Below are positions 18,958 through 34,402 of a stretch of DNA of 64,000 bases, in pieces. A model generated the notes under the pieces. It was not told the origin of the DNA. It did not search any database and saw nothing but the letters and a program-made list of their open reading frames with translations. Both the position numbers and the translations under genes were made by a program. Numbering within the stretch: the stretch's first letter is position 1; every line of letters starts with the position of its first letter. The DNA comes from a virus. The stretch lies in IMG/VR virus record IMGVR_UViG_3300046328_000506, positions 62,001 through 126,000 of that record; one strand, written 5' to 3'.

Positions 18958-21693
18958 TTATTCACAACTAATACAATGCGCAAATTTACGACTAAACTCA
19001 GAAGCAGATGAAATGTTATGCTGATAATACAAAGTCTTAACTCCCATATCGTGTGCAAGTAACATTAATCTATTTACTTCTTTTGCTGTAGTATCTGCTG
19101 TAATAAATAAGTTTAATGATTGTGATTGGTCAATATACTTTTGCCTATGTGCTGCTTGTATAATTATTTCTTCTTGACTAATCTCTCGTGATGTTTTAAA
19201 TACTAACTTCTCATCATCTGTAAGGAAATCTAAATGTAACACACTTCCCTTTTCTTTCATTATACTATTCCATACTTCATCGGTATTTTTACCTTTTTTA
19301 ATTAATAAGTTTTGTAAGTAGGGATTTTTAATTACAAACTTTCCTTTTGCTAAATCTTTAATATAATAGTTACTATCGTAAGGTTCTATACTTTGACTTA
19401 CTTGTCCTAAAATAAACGCACTACTTGTTGTGGGGGCAATTGCTTGTAGTGTAGTATTTCTTCTACCTGTTCCTTTTGTCCATTCACATTCACCAAACAT
19501 TACAGCTAACTTTTTAGACGCTTTTAAGGCTTGTGATTGAATTGTTTTTTGTATTGATACATTATGTAGTCTTGCTTCCAACGATTCAAATGGTATCATC
19601 TTAGATTGTAAATAAGAGTGATAACCTAACCTGCCAATACCTAATGCTCTATGATTCTTAGCAAAGTTTACTGTCTTTTCCATGAACTTTATCTTAGATG
19701 CCTTATTTATAAACTCTGTCATTACAGCATCCAATAAAAACGTAACTACTTCTACACAATCTGTATCTTTCCACTCTTCATAATACAAATCATTTAAGGA
19801 AGCTAAATCACACACAAAAGATTCTTCAGTATTTACTGGCAAACAAACTTCAGAACAATTAGATGTGATAACACTATTACAAATCCAAAGATGCTCATTT
19901 GAATTCACTGTCGTACAATACACATCTTCATTACCAACATATTCTATAGATTTTATTTTATACGATTTTTTACAGTTACTCCTATATTCTCTATCTTCAA
20001 TAATAATATTTTTTCGTGATAAAAATCCTGTGTATTTTTCTAATTCTAATGCTGCATTTTTATCTCCAAAATATAATCTCCAACAATCCTTTGTTTCATA
20101 ATATTTATGACCACCATTTCCGTCTGGTAACAATGTTTCGCCAGCTTTTCTCATTATTGCTATCTTTGCATTTAAACCGAGATTGTTAAATAGTATTTGT
20201 AATTCTTCTAAAAACTCTCGATTAATGTTTGATAGTGATACTTGAAGTGCTTGATTACTTTCTTGTAATCCGACTGTGCCATCAGCATATAATAATCCCC
20301 TTATATATTGCCATTGAGTTAATTCGTCAGATTCCCAAATCCATTGTGGCACATATCCTTTTTCAAAATTTAATGCTTTTTTTAAACTTTTACTTGTTAA
20401 TCTTTTCTTTTTAACAGTAGAATGATAAACTGCACAATCTGCAAATTTTGCAATTTCATAAACTCTATTGTTTACTCCAATATTTGATTTATATTTGTTA
20501 GTAATATTAGTAAAACATGTTTCAATTTCTGGTATTAAATCAAAATCGTTTTCCCACACATCTAACATAACAGAGTCTTTATGCTGAGTTCCATCTGCTT
20601 GATATAGTCCTAATAAAAACGCCTCTTCTTGCATTGAATTTTTGCCAAAAATACCTTTGTTTGTTTGAGTGCAAACTTTATCATCAACTTTTAAATCTTT
20701 ACATTCAACCATGCCATACTTATTGTCTCCATAATAAACTTTTACTTTGTGATAAGAAGTAACTGTGTGAGTAATTCCATTCTCCAAAGTTAATTTATAC
20801 ACAGGAGCATCTTTCTCAATTAATCTCATTGGGGAAGCAGTTACAATTTTTGTATTATCAAAAAGTGTTAATTCTTCACCTCTGTCATATAATTCTTTAA
20901 CAGTTAATAAGCCGTCTGAGGTTGGAACTCGTTCACTCCCTATTACACAAAGATTTGACGCTTTAATCAAGGATTTGTTCTTATAAACTTCTGGTGTAGA
21001 TTCTCCGTTATTTACATTATCTTTAAAAAATATGTAAGGTAAACCTGTTTCAAATCTTTTCTGAATTACTTTAGCCCAAAGATTTCTTTTTTCAGCATCA
21101 CCCTCTTTCATTTTTTTAATCCAATCAGAAGAAATACATACTCCCCAAGTTAATTGTTGTATTGGATTACCTTCTTTTCTTATGCCCAACCACTCCTCTA
21201 TATCTGGATGTGTAATGTCTTGGTAAACAGCAAGATAACCCCTTCTTGATGAGCCTTGAGAAATCGTATTACTTACACTTTGGAATAGTTCTAAGAAACT
21301 AAATGTACCATTACTCTTACCATTGTTTGTAATAGCACTGCCTCTTGGTCTTACATCTCCAAAATAAGCTGATGTACCACCGCCAAGTTTACTCATCATA
21401 CCTATTTCTGCTGATGTTGATAAAATATCTTCTACTGTATCGTTTACATAACTTGAAAAGCAAGAGATTGGTAAACCTCTGTCTGTGCCAAAGTTAGTCC
21501 AAATAGGTGTAGATAAACTTATCCAACCATTAGCTATGTATTGTTGTAGTTTTATAGAGAAACCTTCTATCCCTAATATCTTTTCAGCATTATCCCCAAC
21601 TATTTTTATTCTTTCTTCTACTGTTTGATTTGGTAGTAAATAATCTTTTGATAGAAACTCCTTAGAGTAGTCTGTAAGCCATCTTATAGTCAT
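18958..21693 (-). CDS. nrdA: Ribonucleotide reductase large subunit with intein
   Basis: Precursor of 911 residues; removal of the intein (residues 249-612) leaves 547, short but complete for phage class I NrdA. Visible reductase features: P-I-S-C78-F (substrate-face redox Cys), G-G-G-T-S-A-Y loop, the N247-L-(intein)-C613-S-E615 catalytic motif that carries the thiyl Cys, a P-T-T-S-S-A-F / E-P-Y phosphate-site region, and a C-terminal C-I-S-C-E pair that passes electrons. It reduces ribonucleotides to deoxyribonucleotides with NrdB. It lies 22 bases after nrdB in the same operon. Confidence 0.93.
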   Translation of the reverse strand: MTIRWLTDYSKEFLSKDYLLPNQTVEERIKIVGDNAEKILGIEGFSIKLQQYIANGWISLSTPIWTNFGTDRGLPISCFSSYVNDTVEDILSTSAEIGMMSKLGGGTSAYFGDVRPRGSAITNNGKSNGTFSFLELFQSVSNTISQGSSRRGYLAVYQDITHPDIEEWLGIRKEGNPIQQLTWGVCISSDWIKKMKEGDAEKRNLWAKVIQKRFETGLPYIFFKDNVNNGESTPEVYKNKSLIKASNLCVIGSERVPTSDGLLTVKELYDRGEELTLFDNTKIVTASPMRLIEKDAPVYKLTLENGITHTVTSYHKVKVYYGDNKYGMVECKDLKVDDKVCTQTNKGIFGKNSMQEEAFLLGLYQADGTQHKDSVMLDVWENDFDLIPEIETCFTNITNKYKSNIGVNNRVYEIAKFADCAVYHSTVKKKRLTSKSLKKALNFEKGYVPQWIWESDELTQWQYIRGLLYADGTVGLQESNQALQVSLSNINREFLEELQILFNNLGLNAKIAIMRKAGETLLPDGNGGHKYYETKDCWRLYFGDKNAALELEKYTGFLSRKNIIIEDREYRSNCKKSYKIKSIEYVGNEDVYCTTVNSNEHLWICNSVITSNCSEVCLPVNTEESFVCDLASLNDLYYEEWKDTDCVEVVTFLLDAVMTEFINKASKIKFMEKTVNFAKNHRALGIGRLGYHSYLQSKMIPFESLEARLHNVSIQKTIQSQALKASKKLAVMFGECEWTKGTGRRNTTLQAIAPTTSSAFILGQVSQSIEPYDSNYYIKDLAKGKFVIKNPYLQNLLIKKGKNTDEVWNSIMKEKGSVLHLDFLTDDEKLVFKTSREISQEEIIIQAAHRQKYIDQSQSLNLFITADTTAKEVNRLMLLAHDMGVKTLYYQHNISSASEFSRKFAHCISCE
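19858..20949 (-). other. Intein in NrdA (LAGLIDADG type)
   Basis: Protein-splicing element of 364 residues. It starts with Cys (C-V-I-G-S-E-R-V-P-T), has a block-B-like T-S-Y-H-K region, two LAGLIDADG-like helices (residues 359-368 F-L-L-G-L-Y-Q-A-D-G and 463-472 Y-I-R-G-L-L-Y-A-D-G) and ends N-S-V-I-T-S-N followed by Cys +1. The C-terminal penultimate residue is Ser where His is usual, a known tolerated variant in some inteins. The splice site falls directly before the catalytic radical Cys of NrdA, the classic conserved-site choice for homing elements. Confidence 0.88.
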
Positions 21694-21715: not shown

Positions 21716-23665
21716 TTAAAATAAATCGTCTGAAGTAATGCTTTGTGCTTTCTTAGTGTAATTTGTAGGTACTTTATTGAAAAAGTCTGTATGTGTATTA
21801 GATAAGGTTTCTACATCAAACCATGCTACTTGTTTTAATAGTTCTGTATTAACATAGTATATCTTATTAGCGCCTATCATTTCTAATGACTTGTTAAATC
21901 TATCTTTTAAAAATTCTATAACTACATTTTTAGGTAAGAAATCTATTTCTCCATTTTGGAATATCCAATCTACTATTTTTTCTTCTGCTGAAAATGCTTT
22001 TTTACAAGCTCTTGTAATTGTGTCGTAAAACTCTTGTGTAAATATTTCTGGGCATTGCTTTTTAACTAAACTAATGATATAAGCCCCAGCTTTGGCATGG
22101 AGGTCTTCCTCTGACCTTGTAGCTTGTATTACATTATCAATACCTTTAAATAAATTCTTTTCTTTGTTGAATGATTTAATAATGAGGAACTGAGAAAACA
22201 AAGATACATTCTCTATAAATAAACTAAATAGAGTAAGGGTTAGTATGTATTGTTCTTTGTTATTTGAGCTTGCGTTTTTTAAATATTTTTCTAAATAATC
22301 TATTCTCCCTTGTATAACAGGTTCTTCTATTAGTTTTTCAAACGCTTCATTTAAACCTAATAATTCTAAAAGATTAGCATAAGCTCTTAGATGACGAATT
22401 TCCGAGTTACCCCCAATAAACGTACAATTATTATATCTTGTTACAATTGCACCAGATGGTACAGTTACACAATATATATTTCCTGTGTAATTTTCTATTG
22501 TTTCTTTAAGTGCGCTAAATGCTACTTTTTCTCTGTTAGCAATAAATGAAACAATATAAACATCGTTAAATGTTTCTTTTCTGGAATCTTTATGTATTCC
22601 CATATTAGCTTTATATCCAGCCAATGTTCCTATCATTTGTACAATATCAGCGTTTGTTTTGTCTGTGGTAGAATATTTTATCTTACAATCTTTTTTGTGT
22701 GGTAATCTTGTGCCATCCCAGTAAGACAATTCTTCAACAAAATCTTTACACCATAAATGAGATTGTTTATCAATTACAACCCAATTAAATTGCTTGTAAT
22801 TAAATTCTGTATCCATATCAATTTCAACTTTAATGTAACCTGTTTTTGTCACATTAAACGTTCTATATGTTACATCGCAATCTTTTAATATTTCAAAAAG
22901 CCTTTCTTTTTTACGTTCTTTCTTAACACTTATTTCATAAGTATGACAATTAGAACTTGTGCCCCTATGCCTTTTTTCTCCACTTTTTAATCTTCTCCAA
23001 CGAATTGAACCATCTGCTTGTATCGCAATTTTTAATCTTTCTAATGATGTTAGTTTATGAATTTCACCATTAATAATACCTGCTTCTGGTAAAAAATTAT
23101 TACTATTTTTTACACCAAGTTCTTTAATACTTTTTGATGTGTAGTTTCCTTTTGAATCAAAATACACGATTCTATGATTTGGTGTGATTTGTACATCAAT
23201 ACCTTTTTTGTGAAGTTTGTGAATTTCTCCAGAGTAATGTTCTTTAATAGTCCTAAGTGCTGGTGTAAAATTAATCTTACAATCTTCAGTATACTGTGCT
23301 ACTAAATCACCAACATTTATTTTTTCAAAATTTACCCATCCATTTGGTGTTAGTATTTCAGTGCCTTCAATATGACACTCACCGAAGCTAACACCCAGCA
23401 TATCAAATTCTGGTTTGGGGAATTGATTATACAAGTTACTCCAAAACCTTTTTACATTTACTTCTATTTGTGATATTGCAAGCATTGCATTTGTTACAGC
23501 ACTTCGTTCTACGACACTCAAATTTGCTTTGAAGTCTTGTATATCACTGTTATAATTGAACTCGCTATGAAGCCAATAGCTATGGTTTATAGCATCTACA
23601 AAATCTATTAACTCTGGGTACTCGTAAGGTTTTAACGTAGTTCTTTTTTCAAATATATTTGGCAT
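21716..23665 (-). CDS. nrdB: Ribonucleotide reductase small subunit with intein
   Basis: Precursor of 649 residues; without the intein (97-420) it is 325, typical of class I NrdB. Ferritin-like helices carry the metal ligands: first helix near residues 60-70 (Q-I-E-V-N), the S421-E422-I-R-H425 motif after the intein, and later E-N-V-S-L-F and E-E-D-L-H-A-K-A. It forms the radical cofactor that NrdA uses. It is the first gene of the operon after a consensus promoter. Confidence 0.92.
   Translation of the reverse strand: MPNIFEKRTTLKPYEYPELIDFVDAINHSYWLHSEFNYNSDIQDFKANLSVVERSAVTNAMLAISQIEVNVKRFWSNLYNQFPKPEFDMLGVSFGECHIEGTEILTPNGWVNFEKINVGDLVAQYTEDCKINFTPALRTIKEHYSGEIHKLHKKGIDVQITPNHRIVYFDSKGNYTSKSIKELGVKNSNNFLPEAGIINGEIHKLTSLERLKIAIQADGSIRWRRLKSGEKRHRGTSSNCHTYEISVKKERKKERLFEILKDCDVTYRTFNVTKTGYIKVEIDMDTEFNYKQFNWVVIDKQSHLWCKDFVEELSYWDGTRLPHKKDCKIKYSTTDKTNADIVQMIGTLAGYKANMGIHKDSRKETFNDVYIVSFIANREKVAFSALKETIENYTGNIYCVTVPSGAIVTRYNNCTFIGGNSEIRHLRAYANLLELLGLNEAFEKLIEEPVIQGRIDYLEKYLKNASSNNKEQYILTLTLFSLFIENVSLFSQFLIIKSFNKEKNLFKGIDNVIQATRSEEDLHAKAGAYIISLVKKQCPEIFTQEFYDTITRACKKAFSAEEKIVDWIFQNGEIDFLPKNVVIEFLKDRFNKSLEMIGANKIYYVNTELLKQVAWFDVETLSNTHTDFFNKVPTNYTKKAQSITSDDLF
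22406..23377 (-). other. Intein in NrdB
   Basis: Protein-splicing element of 324 residues beginning C97-H-I-E-G-T-E-I-L-T-P and ending F-I-G-G-N420 with Ser421 as the +1 nucleophile. Block B is seen as I-T-P-N-H-R-I-V. A degenerate LAGLIDADG pair is at about 211-220 (L-K-I-A-I-Q-A-D-G-S) and 310-319 (V-E-E-L-S-Y-W-D-G-T), so the homing nuclease may still be active. The penultimate residue is Gly, not His. The splice point is one residue before the first metal ligand of the E-x-x-H motif. Confidence 0.85.
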
Positions 23666-28017: not shown

Positions 28018-28713
28018 TAATTGTACTAATTATGTTTATTTGTATAATGTTTTTATTCTTGTAATATACAGTACAAAAAATTACTATGATAAAAATGATA
28101 TAACTTATTGATTGTTAGAGCTTTACAAGGATATTATGACAAACTCGTTTTAGCAGTAATATTAATTACTTTGTACCAAATCCAAGTATAGTTAAATAGT
28201 GGTATAACTACTGTGATACTCAATGAGTTACAGTGATTTTCTCTATGTAAAAAATTGTACTACTATTTTTATACCCCTCCCCCTTTTGAATTTAATATCT
28301 TTAACCGTTATAAATTTTTACACAGTACCTATATTAGTAATGATACCCCCTCACTTTTTAATGGGATTATAGTTTCTGATAATAAAATTGTATGTGTGTG
28401 TTCTAAGGGTGATACCATCTCATAATTGACCCTCCATCAAGAGCGTATTAGAAAATAGAATTGATATACTGTTTCCTATTGGGAACAGTCTATTGATTTT
28501 ATAAAAAAGAATAGCTTTACAGTAATGTAAAGTAACAGAATCAATTAAGCGGTGTTAGTTGCTTAATCTATTCTTATTCTAATGTGCATAGTAAGGCGTT
28601 ATCTTGCAAGGCTTAACACACTTGTAAGATATTAGGATAAGAATAAAAGGGTATCCCTTTTTTCTCTTTGCAGTGTTAAATAGTTTCCTTACAACTATTG
28701 CAAAGTTTTTTAA

Positions 28714-28786
28714 CTTGTATATGACAGATGCCTTTACGTGGCATACAAGATAAGTAATTACGAAAGTAATGAAACTAAATCTGTCA
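28714..28786 (+). ncRNA. H-type pseudoknot RNA element A
   Basis: Helix 1 pairs CTTGTAT (28714-28720) with ATACAAG (28743-28749). Helix 2 pairs TGACAGAT (28722-28729) with ATCTGTCA (28779-28786). The order 1-2-1'-2' is a pseudoknot. A GCC/GGC hairpin sits between, and ATTAC-GAAA-GTAAT (28757-28770) forms a GNRA-type tetraloop hairpin. It precedes the first rightward gene by ~165 bases; a leader regulator or free RNA is possible. Confidence 0.55.
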
Positions 28787-28835
28787 AAATTGGATTATTC
28801 CAATAGAGTTTAAGTCTTAACACGTTGTTTTGTCT

Positions 28836-28843
28836 TAACTTTG
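28836..28843 (+). promoter_or_regulatory. Possible -7 box of the first early gene
   Basis: TAACTTTG matches the TAnnTTTG box, 110 bases before the ATG at 28954. A matching TTTG is not at the right spacing, so the support is partial. Confidence 0.35.
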
Positions 28844-28953
28844 TTGTACTATTCTAATAACAGTTGTGTATGTTTTCTTTAATAGCATACAAAGGTTAAA
28901 TTGTGATATACCTATTAATCTACTCACACAAAAATACCATACCATTTATTTAT

Positions 28954-30809: not shown

Positions 30810-30871
30810 AACTTGCAAATTTATATTAGATTATTCTTCTTTTAGAACTATCTATTGTATATTTGCAAGTT
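30810..30871 (+). repeat. 11-bp inverted repeat with 40-base loop
   Basis: AACTTGCAAAT (30810-30820) and ATTTGCAAGTT (30861-30871), perfect. The second arm contains a TATATTTG -7-like box (30858-30865). It lies upstream of the ATG at 30923. Similar long-loop perfect stems of unrelated sequence occur at 39647 and 43756. Confidence 0.55.
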
Positions 30872-30922: not shown

Positions 30923-31162
30923 ATGCCATTATTTTCAAGCCAAGTAATTGGCTATTTTAACAATGAGTACGGGAGTGCTTATTGTGATATTTACTGCTCA
31001 GATAATTTGTCAGAGCAACAAATGGAAGAGATTCATCAGAATCATCTTCAAAACGGTGATGTGTATCGCCAATGTACTTTTATGAGTCTTGTAGAGGCTC
31101 GTAAAATGTGGAAAGAAAATCCACAGTACATAGAACTATTTGAATCCTTTTGGGAAAAATAG
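30923..31162 (+). CDS. Hypothetical protein
   Basis: Start at the ATG at 30923 preferred over TTG at 30863, which lies inside the inverted repeat. 79 residues with two Cys-containing strands and a C-terminal helical part with several Trp/Met. Unknown. Confidence 0.45.
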   Translation: MPLFSSQVIGYFNNEYGSAYCDIYCSDNLSEQQMEEIHQNHLQNGDVYRQCTFMSLVEARKMWKENPQYIELFESFWEK

Positions 31163-31590
31163 TGTACACTGATAGGGGAAATAAACTCCTTAATCAATAG
31201 TAGAGTTGGGTAATCGCATGATTATTTAAACTATTGAGGATTGAACAACAATTCTATTTTTTGTATGTTTTTAAAAACATAATCCTGTTTGAGCAGGGAT
31301 ACCATAGAGTATCAAAGGTGATTAGGCTCAAATTTCGTCACAGTGCCAGTTGAGAAGGTTCTTAATCAACCTTCTCAAGAAATCGTGTGTCATCACACGG
31401 AAGATTGGGGAAACCCATTAGGAGGAGTGGAACCTTGTGATGAGCAAGGAAACTCTATAACAACTCCATTGATAGATGAAAATCTTCTGTGGATAGTTGT
31501 AGAAGACTAATAATCTTCTAACGTAAGACGACCACGAAACGGTTGAAAGAGTAGTAACTCTCCTGAATAAAAGCAGGGTATAGTAAAAAA

Positions 31591-31790
31591 GATTTCATAG
31601 CTCAATTGGTCAGAGCATTTTAAAATAAACAACAGCTTTTTTTATAAGTGAAGATAGTAACTTATAATTTAAACGTAGTTGTTGAAGTGATTAAAAGATA
31701 ATAAAAGCCCAGCAGAATGGGAAGAAACGAAAACTTTTAATCAGTTGTTTATTTTTAAAAAGGTTTCAGGTTCAAGTCCTGATGATTTCA
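31591..31790 (+). ncRNA. tRNA-like domain with a giant anticodon arm
   Basis: D-arm GCTC-AATTGGTCA-GAGC, one base, stem TTTTA/TAAAA (31618-31622 with 31756-31760), a 5-base variable loop, T-arm TCAGG-TTCAAGT-CCTGA (31766-31782) and a 7-base acceptor strand (31783-31789) plus A. The acceptor pairs GATTTCA with TGATTTC with two U-U mismatches. Instead of an anticodon loop, the anticodon stem continues as an 11-bp helix (31623-31633 with 31744-31754) and a junction with TTATAAGT/ACTTATAA and GATTAAAAG/CTTTTAATC (the last enclosing CCC/GGG). Too short for a standard group I intron; not a tmRNA because the D-arm is intact. Confidence 0.6.
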
Positions 31791-32385
31791 CGAACTCGAA
31801 TATATTGTTAATGGCATCTGGACTCCGAAGTAGGCTATGTTGTGAGACATAGAAAAAAAGGGCTAACAGAAATAATGTTCTAACAATACAACGAAGCATC
31901 TGTGTAGAAGTACAATACATAGGTAATCATAGCTTCCATATAACCGTTTTAAAGTGTGTTGGGTTATAGAATACTAATAGACTATACAATGTCTATTGAA
32001 TATCGGCTCGAAAGAGACCATATAAAGTTTGAAGTAAAAGTTTCGTTGGCTCAAATGAATACTGCTAAGAGTTGAAAACGCAGAGACGAAACAATATTTT
32101 ATTTCAAATGGTGGCAGCAGTCAGAAATGATTGCCTCAATTATATTATTACAACAACCTTATGTTAAGTTAAAAGGTAAAAGACGGTTCAGGTTTAAACC
32201 GATACCTTGTTGTAATAAGATAAAAGAGTAGTAACTGTTAGTAATAACAGACTTCATCAGACGTGATGACTTGGAGAGCAAACTAAGGTTCGTGTATCTC
32301 TTTACGTTGTGCAGACCCGAAAGGGTAATAAACAAATGGTCAATAATAAGGGAAATTTCTCTTTAAAGTAAAATTATGTAAAGTA

Positions 32386-32452
32386 ATATATGTGTTGTTA
32401 TAGCAACAGTGAGTAATCACAAACATATATGAAATCATAAGCTGCTATAACA
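32386..32452 (+). ncRNA. H-type pseudoknot RNA element B
   Basis: ATATATGT (32386-32393) pairs with ACATATAT (32423-32430); TGTTATAGCA (32396-32405) pairs with TGCTATAACA (32443-32452); GTGA-gtaa-TCAC lies between. Order 1-2-hairpin-1'-2', the same plan as element A at 28714 with different bases. It forms the 3' end of the giant RNA region, about 75 bases before the Csx20-like gene. Confidence 0.6.
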
Positions 32453-32526
32453 GAACTTTAAATAGAAAAGGAGTATCGAATACTTCATTGACCGCATTTT
32501 TTTAAATTAATTAAAACTCATATACG

Positions 32527-33114
32527 ATGAAAACTACTCTTTTCGTGGCATTTAGCCACACTCTTACTCAAAGCCAAATTGACGGCTTTCAAAGTCAATT
32601 TTCTACTCAAACTGTTATCAGAGAATTTTCTGATAATGGTGGTATTCCCACTGGTGACGGTGGAGAAGCGTTTACTGAATTTGTTGATTTCAGTATTGTA
32701 AGTCTTGGTGAAGTTGCACCAGAATTACAAGCTCAAATGAGCCAAATTCCTGCAAGAGCTACTTTACAAGAAGTTCAAGAGCTTGCGAAAAGCATTGTAG
32801 CTGAAGCAATCAAAGCTGGTGCAACACATTTTTTCTGTGTTGGTGAACCTACTCTTACAATGTGGGCTAACTTATTGATAGAAAGAAAGATGGTGTCAGC
32901 AAGACTCACTTACTATGTGTCAGAAGATGGTACAGAAGTAGGGTGGGGTAAAACTTCATCTGTTTTTGTAGAGGATAGATACAAAGTCGAACATCCTCAA
33001 ATTACTTGTATTCAATCAACCACTGAACGTCAATCAGTTGAGGAAACTCAACCTGACGGAAGTGTTTTAAAAAAGGCTATCTTCAACCACGTAATGTGGC
33101 GAGAAATGTTTTAG
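32527..33114 (+). CDS. Csx20-like CARF/ring-nuclease candidate
   Basis: Protein of 195 residues. The N-terminus (T-L-F-V-A-F-S-H11-T-L-T-x-x-Q), a middle P-E-L-Q-x-x-x-x-x-I-P helix region, the strand-loop A-T-H-F-F-C-V-G106-E-P-T-L-T-M-W-A, and the end T-x-R168-x-x-x-E-x-x-x-D-G-S-V-x-K-x-x-x-F-x-H188-V-x-W-R192 follow the pattern I remember for Csx20, a type III CRISPR-associated Rossmann-fold protein tied to cyclic oligoadenylate turnover. An insert of ~35 residues (130-165) is extra. If right, a lone phage copy would act against host type III CRISPR signalling. Codon use is richer in GC than in the neighbours, suggesting high expression or recent arrival. Confidence 0.5.
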   Translation: MKTTLFVAFSHTLTQSQIDGFQSQFSTQTVIREFSDNGGIPTGDGGEAFTEFVDFSIVSLGEVAPELQAQMSQIPARATLQEVQELAKSIVAEAIKAGATHFFCVGEPTLTMWANLLIERKMVSARLTYYVSEDGTEVGWGKTSSVFVEDRYKVEHPQITCIQSTTERQSVEETQPDGSVLKKAIFNHVMWREMF

Positions 33115-34332: not shown

Positions 34333-34402
34333 AAACAATATCGGTTCACAGTCCGAATAAATACAGATGAGACGATGTAATCATTTAATGTAACTATTGT
34401 TT
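34333..34402 (+). ncRNA. Stem-enclosed T-arm-like RNA element
   Basis: AAACAATA (34333-34340) pairs with TATTGTTT (34395-34402) and encloses TCGG-TTCACAGT-CCGA (34341-34356), which looks like a tRNA T-arm. It precedes the ATG at 34423 by 21 bases. Confidence 0.4.

Follow-up and report, generated by a model that had tools for sequence, protein, structure and literature searches.

To our knowledge, the giant RNAs known from phages are few, and for none of them is the function settled. For two of them, GOLLD and ROOL, a role as a self-assembling scaffold or compartment has been proposed. Both RNAs form nanocages, and the linkers of GOLLD can hold tRNAs (PMC12286853). Here, we describe a region of a phage genome that resembles GOLLD (RF02032) in encoding an apparent giant ornate RNA, in matching the distance from terL and the strand of the GOLLDs of six relatives, and in holding a tRNA, but that has no match to the GOLLD covariance model and lacks the UCAAAAG and AGCAAAAG motifs; moreover, a tRNA in GOLLD is an intact linker gene, whereas here it is degenerate and built into the fold. 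ROOL (RF03087) is likewise a large phage RNA that often lies near tRNAs, but its model spans about 574 positions and does not match the region. A further likeness is to tmRNA, since this RNA also has tRNA-like halves with a long insert; in contrast to tmRNA, the tRNA part is internal and its D stem is a true one, a tag frame was not identified, and Rfam gives no match.

A structured non-coding region in a crAss-like phage

The window analysed here, a stretch of 64,000 nucleotides, comprises bases 62001–126000 of a 130,171-base IMG/VR virus record. Its major capsid protein (MCP) matches the Pfam family Crass_capsid (E 4e-12) and its terminase (TerL) matches phrog_6681, the PHROG of crAss-like terminases (E 1e-59), so that the phage carries both proteins by which Crassvirales are recognised, a crAss-type major capsid protein and terminase. 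One fragment has an identical terminase; otherwise the nearest one found, in G096, is only 38% identical. Because MCP and TerL match crAss families while the nearest other terminase is this distant, we place the phage, on its protein sequences, as a deep branch of the crAss-like viruses. Searches with TerL, MCP and the downstream ORF returned a single fragment as close relative, in which TerL and MCP are 100% identical and which ends short of the RNA region. The host is likely a member of the Bacteroidota, judging from the crAss affinity and the promoter type. TAnnTTTG is the Bacteroidota-type −7 promoter box; such boxes are enriched here (55 versus 37±6 in shuffles) and stand directly 5′ of both tRNA genes, tRNA-Gln and tRNA-Met, which ARAGORN placed about 4.3 kb downstream of the RNA region. 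Elsewhere in the window, both ribonucleotide reductase subunit genes (18958–21693 and 21716–23665) apparently contain inteins, as read from their translations only.

The region at 31163–32526 (1,364 nt) is the longest ORF-free gap in the window, and the claim of about 1.35 kb without a credible ORF was borne out. It holds no ORF of at least 60 aa on either strand (table 11), its three plus frames contain 33, 38 and 46 stops, and TAG or TGA readthrough yields longest open runs of no more than 107–110 codons. The second longest ORF-free stretch (28112–28902) lies between divergent genes and has hairpins near 28440–28870 and a promoter-like TAACTTTG at 28836.

The full-length fold of the region gave z-scores of −8.8 on the plus strand and −7.2 on the minus strand; since two of eight controls came near these values (about −8; 8 shuffles per control), fold energy alone is not decisive. 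In local windows of 120 nt, the mean z-score was −1.75 inside the region versus −0.41 outside (p 4e-5). The discriminating evidence for a structured RNA is the loops, not the energy. The minimum-energy fold of the plus strand has 35 hairpins, 8 GNRA tetraloops, 17 tetraloops and 16 stems of at least 6 bp, compared with means of 25.1±3.2, 0.43±0.74, 5.9±2.4 and 6.2±2.5 and maxima of 32, 3, 12 and 12, respectively, among 60 dinucleotide shuffles; the corresponding maxima among 90 same-length windows of the same sequence were 31, 4, 12 and 16. No GNRA loop was found on the minus strand of the region. The dense structure with many helices and GNRA loops put forward in the original prediction thus holds against the shuffles, and the region is non-coding and strongly structured, with the plus strand as the structured one.

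Clusters of GNRA hairpins were also used as a signature and scanned across the fetched phage sequences. Applied blind, the scan flagged two loci (L172 and L183), which a subsequent Rfam search assigned to GOLLD with 302 and 285 bits, and a later candidate (L472) turned out to hold group I introns. Since its blind use led to GOLLD RNAs and to group I introns in other phages, the signature recognises real structured RNA; the introns in L472 mean that it marks structured RNA generally and does not name the family. L472 was rejected as another giant RNA on account of these introns, three of which fall in a span of about 6 kb on a single crAss-like contig (1743–2013, 4092–4352 and 7124–7325 (−)), and two GNRA-rich windows (L316 and L244) were rejected as coding.

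Known RNA families and the slot shared with GOLLD

The original prediction had named a new family and a divergent member of a known one as the two options, with an Infernal/Rfam scan as a check. Run at gathering cut-offs and, for the region alone, at E-values up to 5, the Rfam scan returned no GOLLD, ROOL, OLE, HEARO or group I or II intron in the region, which speaks against a divergent member of the Rfam giant RNA families; the same library does find the group I introns in L472. The covariance model of the GOLLD 3′ core had no match in the region either, its best score in the record (5.1 bits) lying elsewhere, and the UCAAAAG hairpin loop and the AGCAAAAG junction, which are present in most GOLLDs read, are absent from 31163–32526. 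The ROOL covariance model gave no match in the region in a dedicated search, which was a weak one as its control genomes yielded no positive.

No homologue was found by blastn in phages and plasmids, by searching the DNA of some 100 phage records, by nhmmer, by a covariance model of 32117–32270 (R1) over 2.7 Mb, or by two DNA patterns over IMG/VR. The pattern matches of the repeated phrase in IMG/VR were rejected as unrelated and mostly coding, and short blastn matches in two relatives (L092 and L094) as chance matches in ordinary sequence of other genes. As far as these sequence comparisons reach, the RNA is an orphan within the databases searched. What stands of the predicted GOLLD/ROOL-like giant RNA near tRNAs is a structured non-coding plus-strand RNA with two tRNA genes within about 4.3 kb; a second member, which would make it a family, was not found in these searches.

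GOLLD itself was found in six crAss-like relatives, with scores of 54 (G006), 95 (G007), 74 (G103), 87 (G106), 57 (G112) and 85 bits (G121). Although their E-values are 1e-15 to 1e-27, these GOLLDs score well below the Rfam cut-off of 150, which therefore misses this clade. Divergent GOLLDs of this kind in crAss-like phages seem not to have been reported before, no earlier record having been found in the literature searched. They are located at L331 (G007:165903–166328), L332 (G006:73136–73653) and L435–L438, and the linker of the one in G006 holds an intact tRNA. All six lie on the strand opposite to terL, 13–20 kb upstream of it; the distances are 16.9, about 14.0, 20.5, 13.2, 16.2 and 15.5 kb, where the second figure assumes a circular record and the last assumes that contig C4 carries terL. 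The RNA described here starts 17.4 kb upstream of terL, again on the opposite strand, and its setting is of the GOLLD type in being phage-borne, near tRNAs and in the slot used by crAss-like relatives. By our estimate, a random position would share the strand and distance range of the GOLLDs in about 2–3% of cases, which makes the argument from the slot no more than suggestive. Given a shared slot and the lack of the GOLLD core and motifs, the RNA is, as judged by sequence, either distinct from GOLLD or a GOLLD so diverged that it is no longer recognised.

The second of these readings, a GOLLD RNA in the same slot and with the same tRNA habit that has become too distant for the Rfam model, seems unlikely to us, although it has points in its favour: slot and strand are shared with GOLLD in six relatives, GOLLD already scores weakly in this clade, and GOLLD linkers hold tRNAs. 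Against it, relatives whose TerL is only about 25–29% identical still reach the E-values given above, whereas this region has no match at E 5; the two motifs are missing; and the tRNA part is enclosed by helices instead of lying in an open linker.

The relative with the nearest terminase, G096, has a strongly folded stretch (L443:2141–4715) with a tRNA-Arg and a short ORF between its parts and a hatchet ribozyme. Like the RNA region, this stretch is long, strongly folded, holds a tRNA and lies past the same last minus-strand gene (46% identity), but it differs in the hatchet ribozyme, the ORF between its parts and the few GNRA loops. There was no significant sequence similarity between the two; the best local alignment (p about 0.02) was set aside as only suggestive, 7 of 300 shuffles being as good. 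Covariation in the structured region between G096 and its sister record G095 amounted to 1–2 compensatory pairs, no more than in a coding control. The hatchet ribozyme (L443:3482–3683) opens a 1.3-kb structured stretch, and its segment is missing in G095, whose shared sequence is otherwise mostly 97–98% identical. A folded stretch of 0.77 kb in G096 (L443:2141–2912) has GC-rich hairpins, ends at the tRNA-Arg and is 81–83% identical to G095, versus 97–98% in the flanks.

Architecture and gene setting of the RNA

We map the giant structured non-coding RNA to 31163–32503 on the plus strand, as are all features given below; the 3′ end is set at a T run (32497–32503), and the 5′ end is uncertain, with the first confident helix beginning at 31195. 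There a 5′ hairpin array (31195–31522; pair probabilities 0.73–0.99) begins, which includes an 11-bp hairpin (31350–31378) and GAAA-capped hairpins at 31406–31417 and 31474–31485. It is followed by a central domain (31536–31950) enclosed by a 10-bp long-range helix (31536–31545/31941–31950, P 0.82). Further 3′, the compound helix expected at 32028–32108 was recovered at 32027–32109 with 13+8 bp (32027–32047/32085–32109, P 0.97–0.98). The segment at 32117–32270 (model R1) contains a GAAA hairpin, an 11-bp helix, one copy of a repeated phrase and a GUAA hairpin, and the 3′ domain (32338–32503) is closed by GGUCAAU/AUUGACC (32338–32344/32487–32493, P 0.96), after which comes GCATTTTTTT, by its sequence likely a terminator. 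The 14-base phrase, AAAGAGTAGTAACT, does occur twice as first noted (31546–31559 and 32223–32236), and its core GAGTAGTAA is confined to these two copies in the whole 130-kb record, both strands searched.

The RNA is flanked directly by a 79-aa ORF upstream (30923–31162) and a 195-aa orphan ORF downstream (32527–33114); the latter starts 24 nt past the T run, has no family above cut-off and no close relative, and its predicted fold is of low confidence (pLDDT 44). A candidate Bacteroidota-type −7 box, TATATTTG (30858–30865), without TTG at −20 to −23, stands 5′ of the 79-aa ORF. It is the sole promoter-like box, with none of the TAnnTTTG type inside the RNA region or at the RNA 5′ end, and the 79-aa ORF is probably co-transcribed with the RNA. 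A type-P3 twister ribozyme (window 34334–34401, 49 bits) lies between small ORFs 1.8 kb 3′ of the RNA. The position of the box, the close start of the downstream ORF and the ribozyme beyond it would also suit a structured leader or spacer inside an operon, regulating or processing the mRNA of the two flanking ORFs with no separate RNA being made. We consider this improbable: a 1.3-kb stretch holding over 30 hairpins plus a tRNA core goes far beyond known leaders, no riboswitch or leader family in Rfam matches the region, and a terminator-like end precedes the downstream ORF.

At 31591–31790 lies a tRNA-derived domain whose isolated fold is a cloverleaf. Its acceptor (31591–31597/31783–31789) has five of seven pairs, the other two being U-U; the D arm (31600–31616) reads GCUC-AAUUGGUCA-GAGC and the T arm (31766–31782) UCAGG-UUCAAGU-CCUGA. 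Where the anticodon arm would be, there is a branched domain about 140 nt long (31618–31760), made of a 16-bp helix (31618–31633/31744–31760) and inner hairpins. Over 23–24 nt, the two tRNA-like halves are 92–96% identical to genuine tRNA genes from other phages. With two acceptor mismatches and the anticodon arm replaced, there is no complete cloverleaf with an anticodon loop; ARAGORN called no tRNA at 31591–31790, and the Rfam tRNA model scored 18.5 bits at the domain, below its cut-off. Because the acceptor and D arm have competing partners in the whole-RNA fold (P 0.3–0.6), the cloverleaf holds for the isolated domain only. The original prediction had spoken of tRNA-like parts in general terms; the degenerate tRNA gives this substance, and the replacement of the anticodon arm goes beyond that description. 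From these sequences, we infer that the core is a captured phage tRNA that was later reshaped. In two other phage contigs (L145:42 and L194, minus strand, 1043), we also noted tRNA-Ile-like genes in which the anticodon arm is intact and an insert of 130–150 nt precedes the T arm.

A degenerate tRNA part, together with the frequency of tRNA fragments in phages, could also speak for a functionless, decaying remnant of a tRNA cluster or of a tRNA invaded by an intron. This is very improbable, since decay would erase the 8 GNRA hairpins, the 16 long stems and the 13+8 bp helix; group I and II introns are unmatched, and phage genomes seldom retain 1.3 kb of idle DNA. Hardly credible are a DNA-level element, such as an origin or packaging region, for which the divergent gene boundary 3.2 kb away could be cited but against which the strand asymmetry of GNRA loops and energy points to RNA, and a gene in a non-standard code, since no open run exceeds 110 codons with TAG or TGA reassigned.

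Proposed role and significance

We therefore favour, as the probable explanation, an orphan RNA of the giant ornate kind, about 1.3 kb long, located in the GOLLD slot yet distinct from GOLLD in all tests applied, transcribed as the plus strand, with an absorbed tRNA core and probably acting as a self-assembling or scaffold RNA. That it is a giant ornate RNA belonging to none of the known families is very likely. We tentatively propose, as a plausible further reading, that it represents a new class among the giant viral RNAs, with no relation to GOLLD or ROOL, which replaced GOLLD in the slot and uses as its structural core a tRNA whose anticodon arm has become a branched domain.

According to the favoured explanation, the RNA would be transcribed as a unit starting upstream, at the box at 30858, and ending at the T run, and would be made in quantity during infection. 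A phage tRNA may have been absorbed into the RNA centre, where the D and T arms were kept, the acceptor decayed and the anticodon arm gave way to the branched domain; with its arms changed in this way, the core would no longer be an adaptor and may instead serve as an architectural element or as a handle for tRNA-binding enzymes or factors. The GNRA loops and long-range helices would fold the RNA into a compact particle, a possible self-assembling scaffold or compartment that may hold or sequester translation components or its own linker. Oligomerisation, cargo and function are suggested here by analogy.

If a different RNA does occupy the GOLLD slot, this would point to a slot, and with it a task, that persists through a change of RNA, and may give a comparative handle on the role of giant phage RNAs. 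A tRNA built into the fold would, in addition, show one way in which giant RNAs grow.
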